Source: Candidatus Poribacteria bacterium (GTDB taxonomy: Bacteria > Poribacteria > WGA-4E > WGA-3G). Taken from it: 42,684 bases of DNA. The notes beneath the pieces are model-generated. The model saw nothing but the letters and a program-made list of their open reading frames with translations. It was not told the DNA's origin and searched no databases. The DNA lies in the NCBI GenBank assembly GCA_021295715.1, contig JAGWBV010000014.1, positions 13,640 through 56,323 on the forward strand, given 5' to 3'. The position numbers and the translations under genes were made by a program. Positions 17,750 through 20,638 of the stretch are shown one piece after another (positions within the stretch are counted from its first letter, which is position 1; every line of letters begins with the position of its first letter).

Positions 17750-18292
17750 ATGCGAAATAGGCGAGCTATACTCATCGGAATTCTGTGTGTTCTTTCTGTT
17801 GTCTCTGCTGCGTATGGGCAAGCTCCATCGGATTCGGGCGTTATAACGGTTACCAAAGATATAGATGTGTCGAAACTCGCCGAAAATGTAGAAGAATTGA
17901 ACAGGAATATGAAAACTTTGACTGAAACTATTACGAAACTCGAAGGGAGTGTAACTGCCTTGAATACAACTGTGGTCGATATGCAAATAAGAATCGCAGG
18001 AATTGAGCGAGACACAAAAAATAACACTCGCTGGCAGTATGTAATCCTTGCAGGGATTTTCGGTCCCTTGTTGCTTTCTGTTTATGAAAAGAGGAAAAGG
18101 AACAAGGACGATAAGACCACTTCTACTCAAGTTGTTCAACCTAATCAGAGCACGGCTGCTGCTACGAATCCCGCACCGATAAGTGAGGACAAAACTGCTC
18201 CCTCCCCAACAGTGCCCTCAAAGTTCCCCGAAGGAAAAGAGTTGGAAGAGTACTTAAAGTCCGATTCTCATGCCACAAGCGAGAAAGTCTAA
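17750..18292 (+). CDS. Exported coiled-coil protein with one membrane anchor, unknown function
   Basis: A 180-residue protein with a signal peptide (about 1-23, ending AYG), a heptad-like coiled-coil segment at about 38-88 (KLAENVEELNRNMKTL, then TITKLEGSVTAL), a transmembrane helix at about 95-112 followed by a strongly basic stop (YEKRKRNKDD), and a T/P/Q-rich disordered tail. The topology suggests an external coiled coil with a cytoplasmic tail. The family is not recognised. The stop codon overlaps the start of the TPR gene (TAATG), so the two are translationally coupled; the cytoplasmic tail is a plausible partner for the TPR protein (inference). Confidence 0.65.
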   Translation: MRNRRAILIGILCVLSVVSAAYGQAPSDSGVITVTKDIDVSKLAENVEELNRNMKTLTETITKLEGSVTALNTTVVDMQIRIAGIERDTKNNTRWQYVILAGIFGPLLLSVYEKRKRNKDDKTTSTQVVQPNQSTAAATNPAPISEDKTAPSPTVPSKFPEGKELEEYLKSDSHATSEKV

Positions 18293-19002
18293 TGGAAAGC
18301 ATTAACAATGCAAATGGCAATGTCGAACCTGCCGAGAGCTACCTTAATAAAGGTAATGTGCTGCTCGATCAGAAAGATTATGAAGCTGCTATTTCGGCGT
18401 ATGATAAAGCACTCGACCTAAACCCTAACCTTGCTGATGCCTATTTTAAGCGAGGGAATGCCAAGGACGAGATTGGACACTACTTTGAGGCTATTTCGGA
18501 TTATGACGCTACTATCCGTCTCGACCCTGACGCTGCAAATGCCTACTACAATCGAGGGGTCTCGAAATCTAAGTTAGGGCATCCTGAAGCCGCTATTTCG
18601 GACTACAATGCATCTATCCGTCTCAATCCAAACAATGCAAATGCCTATAACAACCGAGGGATTGCGAAGGACGAGATTGGACACTACTTTGAGGCTATTT
18701 CCGACTATGATGCCGCTATCCGTCTCAATCCAAACGATGTAAATGCCTATAACAATCGAGGGATCTCGAAATCTAAGTTAGGGCATCCTAAAGCCGCTAT
18801 CCTTGACTATGATGCGGCTATCCGTCTCAATCCAAACCCTGTAAATGCCTACTACAACCGAGGGAATGCCAAGACGAAGTTAGGGCTCACAGATGATGCC
18901 AAGCGAGATTTTCAGACAGCATTAAATTTGGCGGAAAAGATGGAAGACGAAGAACTGAAGTCCAAAATTATGAAAAGATTAGAGGATTTAGAGACGCGAT
19001 AA
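18292..19002 (+). CDS. Tetratricopeptide repeat protein
   Basis: A 236-residue soluble protein with about six consecutive 34-residue TPR units and no signal peptide. Units from residue 49 alternate in type: KDEIGHYFEAISDYDA (A) and SKSKLGHPEAAISDYNA (B) occur in order A-B-A-B, followed by a diverged unit with KLGLTDDAKRDF. TPRs are protein-binding scaffolds; a specific partner cannot be named, but the gene overlaps the coiled-coil membrane protein by one base. The DNA of the A-B pairs is nearly identical, which points to a recent 204-bp duplication. Confidence 0.88.
   Translation: MESINNANGNVEPAESYLNKGNVLLDQKDYEAAISAYDKALDLNPNLADAYFKRGNAKDEIGHYFEAISDYDATIRLDPDAANAYYNRGVSKSKLGHPEAAISDYNASIRLNPNNANAYNNRGIAKDEIGHYFEAISDYDAAIRLNPNDVNAYNNRGISKSKLGHPKAAILDYDAAIRLNPNPVNAYYNRGNAKTKLGLTDDAKRDFQTALNLAEKMEDEELKSKIMKRLEDLETR
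18442..18849 (+). repeat. 204-bp tandem duplication inside the TPR gene
   Basis: Two tandem copies of a 68-codon unit (an A-type plus a B-type TPR). Stretches such as GACGAGATTGGACACTACTT and TCTAAGTTAGGGCATCCT recur 204 bp apart. The frame is kept. Confidence 0.8.
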
Positions 19003-19054: not shown

Positions 19055-20071
19055 TCAAAGCTCCGGCAAATTCCCAACAATCTCCACCGTCCGCAGACTC
19101 ACATCAATAACCCGCCCAATCAAATCCACAATATACCGCGGCTCGGTTTCACGATTCGGGTCGTTCACGATCCCAGTCCGTTTGTCCGTCTTGACGCGAT
19201 ACTGGTCCACGACCCACTCCAACGCCGAACGCGTGCCTAACCGATAATCATGTACCTCCGCGGGGATGGCGTCCAGCGTCAAAAAATCGTTGTATTGCAA
19301 CTGCGTCTTGTCTTTCGACAATTTCATTTTCTCGACCCGCCAATCGACCCGCATCCCCGGCGTTTCAATATATTTCAACTCATCATATTTCGGAACGGAT
19401 TCATAGTTAACGTGGATGTCTGCCAACGCCTCGCCTGCGGTGGCAAATCCCCAAAAGTCTTCAGCGAACGGGATATGTGGCAAATCGCGCTTCAGGTTCA
19501 TCTCGTATTTCTCGCGATAGGCGGGGTGATGCAAGAGACCGTAATTATAGTGGAAGATGTCCCACTTGGTGAGGGTGTCGTCGCCATAGTGGGTTCGGAA
19601 TTCTGCCAATGCCCAATCGGTGATGTTCTCTTGTCGGTTCGTGCCGTCCTCGTCGTAGGTGTAGAACGGGAAGCATTGAGAATCGCCTGTAATATGGAGA
19701 TCTGGAATTACATCAATCATCAAGGCATGAAAGGATAACTTTGTCCCTGGAGGGCTAACACAAATGACTTGATTTTCCGATTCTGGTGTGATGAGGTTAT
19801 CCTCTATATCTTTCGCTTCCCAGTAGGCAAAGGGGAGTCCGTATTCGTCGAGGATTACACCGTCAATGACGATGCGGTTTCCCGCTACCGTGTGCATGGA
19901 ATATTGCGGAACAAGTGTGGCGTTTACCTGCTGCGCGCAGGCTTGCAGTAGCGTATCAAAAGGCGAGCTAACCGCCCCTTCGTGTGTGATCGTGTGTTGT
20001 TTGTAATGCTGCAGCGTGGTATAATAGTCTCGGATTGCTTTATGATTGGGTTTGAGATTGAATTTCGGCAT
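19055..20071 (-). pseudogene. Type ISP restriction-modification enzyme remnant: N-terminal nuclease fused to C-terminal part by internal deletion
   Basis: The 338-residue frame joins the two ends of a much larger family. Residues 1-92 match the N-terminal nuclease domain of type ISP/DEAD-box restriction enzymes, including THEGAVSSPFDTLLQ and the nuclease motif D70...D75...E85-x-K87 in YWEAKD. From about residue 97 the sequence matches the extreme C-terminus: PDLHITGDSQCFPFYTYDEDG, ENITDWALAEFRTHYGDD, WDIFHYNYGLLHHPAYREKYE, RSALEWVVDQYRVKTDKRTGI and PRYIVDLIGRVIDVSLRTVEIV. The helicase, methyltransferase and most of the specificity region are missing, with the join near 19780-19795. The reading frame is open and has a promoter, so a small product may still be made. 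Start at ATG 20071 is favoured by the promoter position; an ATG at 20113 lies upstream of it. Confidence 0.8.
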
Positions 20072-20077
20072 GAAGAT

Positions 20078-20106
20078 ATAATAGCAGATTGAGGGAAATA
20101 CGTCAA
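20078..20106 (-). promoter_or_regulatory. Strong minus-strand promoter, apparently leaderless
   Basis: Reading the minus strand, TTGACG (20106-20101), a 17-bp spacer and TATTAT (20083-20078) preceded by TGC. Only six bases (ATCTTC) separate the -10 from the ATG at 20071, so transcription should begin at or next to the start codon. No Shine-Dalgarno precedes that ATG, consistent with a leaderless message. Confidence 0.65.
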
Positions 20107-20269
20107 TTTTCATTTTTTTCTAAAAAAACTTGACAATGTTTTTGAAATATGAGAAACTATTAATCATATTAGAAAATTGTGTGTCTGAGTCGGCATTAAC
20201 CTTTCACTTTGGCAAAGTTCTCAAGCCAAAATTTTAGATGTGTGAGGGAAACCAAATAGATTAGAAACA

Positions 20270-20638
20270 ATGTTAATAGATTATCTTCCAATCTTACTAC
20301 TGGGACTCTTCGCAGTCCTCTTTGCGGGTATTAATCTCGCCCTAACCCATATTCTTGGACCCAAACGCCCGAATCGCGTTAAACTCTCCGTTTACGAATC
20401 TGGTGTCCAACCAATCGGCGATGCGAGACAACGATTTACGATTCGTTTCGATCTCATCGCGATGCTCTTTATCATCTTCGATATCGAGGTGGTGTTTCTC
20501 TACCCGTGGGCTGTGGTCTTCAAGAAATTCTCTGAAACGAGTGGTTTATTTATTTTAGTTGAAATGCTGGTGTTTATTGGTATTCTTCTTCTTGGCTATA
20601 TCTATGCTTGGAAGAAAGGAGGCTTAACATGGGATTAG
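20270..20638 (+). CDS. nuoA: NADH-quinone oxidoreductase subunit A
   Basis: Small membrane subunit of complex I near the quinone site. 122 residues with three transmembrane helices and the conserved loop [45 protein letters not shown], where the acidic residues in FDIEV are invariant in the family. First gene of the nuo operon; the stop overlaps the nuoB start by 10 nt. A TTGACA element at 20130-20135 lies upstream, but no well-spaced -10 for the operon could be fixed. Confidence 0.96.

Follow-up and report, generated by a model that had tools for sequence, protein, structure and literature searches.

The DNA analysed here (the window, 42,684 nucleotides, G000:C14:13640-56323) comes from a sponge-associated Candidatus Poribacteria bacterium with a 5.1-Mb draft genome in 175 contigs (G000), and all relatives used for comparison are Candidatus Poribacteria metagenome-assembled genomes. 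On its reverse strand an open reading frame (ORF) of 338 amino acids extends over positions 19055..20071 (stop codon 19055-19057), which its sequence identifies as an internally deleted DrdV-like type IIG restriction-modification (R-M) gene. Translation is taken to start at the ATG at 20071, as used across the family, and a further ATG at 20113 sits upstream of the promoter -35 box. The gene is flanked by the divergent nuoA (20270..20638, forward strand) and, on its 3' side, by a convergent gene encoding a TPR protein (18292..19002, forward strand). Compared with a complete nuclease-methylase-specificity protein of 1022 residues from a relative (L037), the ORF consists of residues 1-94 (19790..20071, reverse strand) joined to residues 779-1022 (19058..19789, reverse strand; PF18135 match), and identity to this reference is 84% on each side of the join (ORF residues 1-94 and 95-338). 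Residues 95-778, corresponding to 684 codons, are absent. The junction lies at 19785..19793 on the reverse strand, and at the DNA level the similarity switches from the N-terminal to the C-terminal part of the parent within about 4 nt, around window position 19789. The initial annotation, made from the sequence of the window, had described an in-frame internal deletion with a join near 19780-19795, and both statements are borne out; the loss of more than 1,000 residues that it had assumed is an overestimate. It had also raised short direct repeats at the join. None of useful length is found there, as only about 1 nt is common to both sides, and a direct-repeat-mediated deletion was dropped for this reason.

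The parent of the short ORF had been taken for a type ISP enzyme that lost its helicase. In L037 (1022 residues) the only Pfam domains are ISP_coupler, N6_Mtase/Eco57I and Type_ISP_C, the last covering profile positions 2-342, and Pfam reveals no helicase or ATPase motor in this chain. Residues 29-1020 of L037 align with residues 23-1025 of DrdV (PDB 7lo5/7lvv) with an E-value of 1.4e-222, that is from end to end, while the type ISP enzymes LlaGI and LlaBIII match the parent only from residue 153, in the coupler domain, onward. The type ISP reading and the supposed loss of a helicase are therefore wrong, as the parent never carried a motor, and by these alignments it is a DrdV-like type IIG/IIL single-chain R-M enzyme. 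Both class names are in use for DrdV, which is termed type IIL with reference to structure 7LO5 (PMC11842806) and type IIG elsewhere (PMC10201449).

The state of the domains left in the short ORF was judged against an AlphaFold model of the first 200 residues of the intact protein (pLDDT 88.9), which superimposes on DrdV and on a 143-residue chain of the DrdV nuclease domain alone with a TM score of 0.91. In this model helices at residues 11-25 and 31-48 are followed by strands at 52-60, 66-74 and 80-86, which carry D70, E85 and then K87, and beyond the position of the junction the domain continues with a helix (93-103), three strands (109-113, 117-122, 125-131) and a further helix (135-147). 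The ORF follows the nuclease domain, which extends to about residue 147, through residue 94 only; of the PD-(D/E)xK nuclease it retains two helices, three strands and the residues D70, E85 and K87, and it lacks K100, G104, Y105, P106, N109, Q113 and P115, all invariant among 70 sequences. The D...D...ExK residues are thus present as the initial annotation had stated, but the nuclease that it had called intact is cut at 94 of about 147 residues. On the other side of the join, the C-terminal part corresponds to PF18135 (Type_ISP_C) profile positions 108-342 of 342 (E-value 2.5e-70), so that the ORF ends not in the extreme C-terminus of the family, as supposed, but in the last two thirds of an incomplete specificity domain. 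The methylase domain, with its SAM motif and NPPY motif, went with residues 95-778. The claim that helicase, methylase and specificity region are all missing accordingly stands for the methylase; a helicase never existed, and two thirds of the specificity domain remain. AlphaFold prediction of the fused protein, with relatives as alignment, yields a pLDDT of 52 and a pTM of 0.28 with values mostly below 50 after residue 88. No credible fold is predicted, and the fused product most likely makes no working nuclease.

A promoter-like site is kept upstream of the ORF (20078..20106, reverse strand), consisting of a -35 box TTGACG at 20101-20106, a 17-nt spacer ending in TGC and a -10 box TATTAT at 20078-20083, which stands 6 nt before the ATG in a leaderless arrangement. 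The good promoter described earlier is therefore confirmed, and it is conserved in the family: an extended -10 element TGYTATYAT near the ATG is present in 53 of 71 family copies when at most one mismatch is permitted, compared with 0-1 in control windows, the distance from the -10 box to the ATG is exactly 6 nt in 51 copies, and TTGAC occurs at the right distance in 52. A Shine-Dalgarno sequence precedes the gene in only one of the 71. This pattern suggests leaderless mRNAs across the whole DrdV-like family. The extended -10 element six nucleotides before the ATG recurs at otherwise unrelated loci (71 copies, e.g., L037, L126 and L110).

The origin of the short copy was addressed by comparing the region upstream of nuoA across 31 related genomes. 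Four of these (G001, G006, G007 and G035) contain a complete copy of 1022 residues upstream of nuoA in the same divergent orientation, and the intergenic sequence on the nuoA side can be aligned among the window and all four. The complete copies of G007 and G006 are also flanked by the TPR gene and its partner, in an order like that in the window. Where enough sequence was available, the remaining sampled genomes have no family copy at this site. The complete genes at the same site and the common upstream sequence show that the window copy is a deletion of a gene native to the locus. The junction itself appears to be confined to this genome, as a search with a 73-residue query spanning the join in the 59 genomes of the taxonomic family matched both sides only in G000; the same fused short form, for which the initial annotation had proposed a search, was not found in any other of these 59.

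Besides the short copy, the genome holds two further copies of the family only, and in both the nuclease region is damaged. In the copy on contig C78 (G000:C78:7806-10894) the frame shifts between residues 58 and 62, and the copy on contig C44 (G000:C44:3923-6790) has multiple lesions within its first 55 residues, one of them a stop. In both, the methylase and specificity regions are still open, as if they were turning into orphan methylases. A complete copy elsewhere in the genome, which had also been considered, was accordingly not found in G000. These observations bear on the idea that the ORF encodes a dominant-negative or regulatory fragment able to join sister enzymes that are complete. 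In DrdV, cleavage is carried out by a multi-subunit assembly whose nuclease domains act in trans (PMC10201449), the fragment holds part of the nuclease together with part of the DNA-recognition domain, and related full-length genes are present in the genus. However, in G000 such a fragment would find no intact family copy as its target, and the interaction surfaces that would be needed are incomplete in the fragment, and we regard such a role as extremely unlikely.

Internal deletions of this kind are frequent in related genomes. With residues 1-184 as query, about two dozen N-terminal stubs were recovered from 30 genomes, most of them with a C-terminal stub directly behind, and at least 18 further copies consist of a 5' stub and a 3' stub after an internal deletion. 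Examples are remnants composed of residues 1-57/989-1022, 1-56/152-179/848-1022, 1-85/889-1022 and 1-61/966-1022; in L065, at another locus in G008, residues about 87-678 are deleted and the frame is shifted. By hand count, 6 of 19 readable junctions are in frame (the window copy, L162, L172, L173, L181 and L185), or 5 of 18 if L172 and L185, which have a common locus and junction, are counted once. Frame retention among the remnants is thus at the level of one third that is expected by chance. In eight genomes, a hand count with the whole protein as query gave about 28 complete copies; at least 19 others were damaged, although contig ends may truncate some of these. The R-M genes of this family are commonly lost by internal deletion. 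The idea of a hot spot for breakpoints directly behind the ExK motif, which the first cases (residues 86-94) had made likely, was dropped, as in further remnants the 5' breakpoints range over residues about 32-104 with one at 121. L065 and L163 are independent deletions in two species at one locus, the same as that of the complete copy L074; their 5' breakpoints are about 10 nt apart and their 3' ends very different. Copy number is very high in the family, each genome of the genus giving 4-33 C-terminal matches and G040 giving 44 matches to the junction query, where both ends of one copy may count separately, and tandem arrays occur as a triple in L110 and as pairs in L055 and L105.

Such remnants also speak to the possibility that a complete gene was collapsed in a short-read metagenome assembly. 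While a draft of 175 contigs and a multi-copy family are circumstances in which this could happen, the two sides share only about 1 nt at the join, so that an assembler would find no repeat there to collapse, full-length copies reach no more than about 80% DNA identity at best and the other copies in G000 are more distant, and equivalent deletions are found in near-complete assemblies of one to three contigs (G034, G035 and G036). An assembly artefact is thus judged very unlikely.

Among the in-frame derivatives, L162 (711-3284, reverse strand; G036:C1:1408210-1410783) is an 875-codon deletion copy in which the region around the SAM-binding motif is lost, while the NPPY motif is kept along with the nuclease region. 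L172 (2818-3090, reverse strand) and L185 (860-1084, forward strand) carry an identical in-frame fusion of residues 1-57/989-1022 at one locus in two species. This fusion of 80-92 residues has a dN/dS of 0.09 over 71 codons; the neighbouring gene groups the two copies together, whereas the mini-ORF itself does not, and their common junction may go back to shared descent, to gene conversion or to deletions that arose independently at a 7-nt microhomology. That some in-frame internally deleted R-M derivatives are retained as small proteins is very improbable in our judgement, and the best hint for it comes from L172/L185 and not from the window copy.

Selection on the short copy was assessed in a tree of 29 copies, in which its terminal branch has a length of about 0.125 substitutions per site. 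The dN/dS of this branch, derived from distances fitted to the tree, is 0.128 (bootstrap 0.08-0.19) compared with a median of 0.12 for intact copies, at a branch dS of about 0.39. Of 128 near-invariant positions, 2 differ in the short copy, which places it at rank 37 of 70 for conservation, and its ORF contains no stop, frameshift or excess change at conserved sites. If the copy evolved at the rate of intact ones until the deletion and neutrally from then on, no more than about 8% of the branch (dS about 0.03) can have been neutral at the upper bootstrap limit. The dN/dS comparison proposed earlier hence reveals no relaxed constraint, but a value equal to that of intact copies fits either a recent deletion or a maintained product. 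An inference of function from the low dN/dS was rejected, as the terminal branch is probably dominated by the time before the deletion. A recent deletion is favoured over a kept product because the join is found in no second genome and because frame retention is at chance level.

The same evidence weighs on the proposal that the fusion encodes a small protein with a function, such as a site-directed nuclease or a component of anti-phage defence equipped with a DNA-binding tail of its own. The open frame, the conserved promoter, the presence of D70, E85 and K87 and the lack of relaxed constraint would all agree with it; yet the deletion runs into both domains, invariant nuclease residues beyond the junction are gone, no credible fold is predicted, the form is unique in 59 genomes and in-frame retention equals chance. 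Neither the new small nuclease nor the anti-phage part put forward in the initial annotation is therefore supported, and a functional small protein of this type seems to us scarcely credible. The third reading offered there, a recent deletion, is the one supported, given complete genes at the nuoA site in four relatives, a unique junction and no decay as yet.

We conclude that the ORF is very probably a recent pseudogene formed by in-frame internal deletion rather than a new nuclease. An illegitimate internal deletion took 684 codons out of a complete DrdV-like gene divergent from nuoA, and its length was by chance a multiple of three, leaving the frame open. As promoter and frame survive, a product of 338 residues may still be made. 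It would lack coupler and methylase and comprise about two thirds of the nuclease domain joined to two thirds of the specificity domain, and it is most likely unfolded, non-cutting and without function; the whole would represent a recent event rather than a maintained product. Against the pseudogene reading it counts that an undamaged ORF on a branch with a dS of about 0.39 would also be expected if the product were maintained, and that the promoter is intact.

R-M genes are enriched in sponge symbionts (PMC5649159). Taken alone, the window copy is of minor significance, an R-M gene caught during its loss that would merit one line in a survey of R-M turnover in these symbionts. The copy number of the family, the repeated deletions that spare both ends and the nuclease damage in all three copies of G000 make Poribacteria a good natural system to study the rates at which single-chain R-M genes are gained and lost.

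Among known systems, DrdV has the same order of nuclease, methylase and specificity domains as the parent family, with a nuclease domain of the same fold and no helicase, and compared with DrdV the window ORF lacks the end of the nuclease, the coupler, the methylase and the first third of the specificity domain. The type ISP enzymes LlaGI (5ffj) and LlaBIII (4xqk) have a coupler, a methylase and a Type_ISP_C domain homologous to those of the parent family. In LlaGI and LlaBIII a helicase-like motor sits between nuclease and methylase, and this motor has no counterpart in the parent family. In decaying R-M genes and remnants of the genus (such as L065, L166, L170-L173, L176-L181, L185 and L186), a 5' stub and a 3' stub from this gene family are likewise joined; they differ from the window copy in their breakpoints, about two thirds of them are out of frame and several have extra stops or frameshifts, and the window copy retains more of the gene than most of them.
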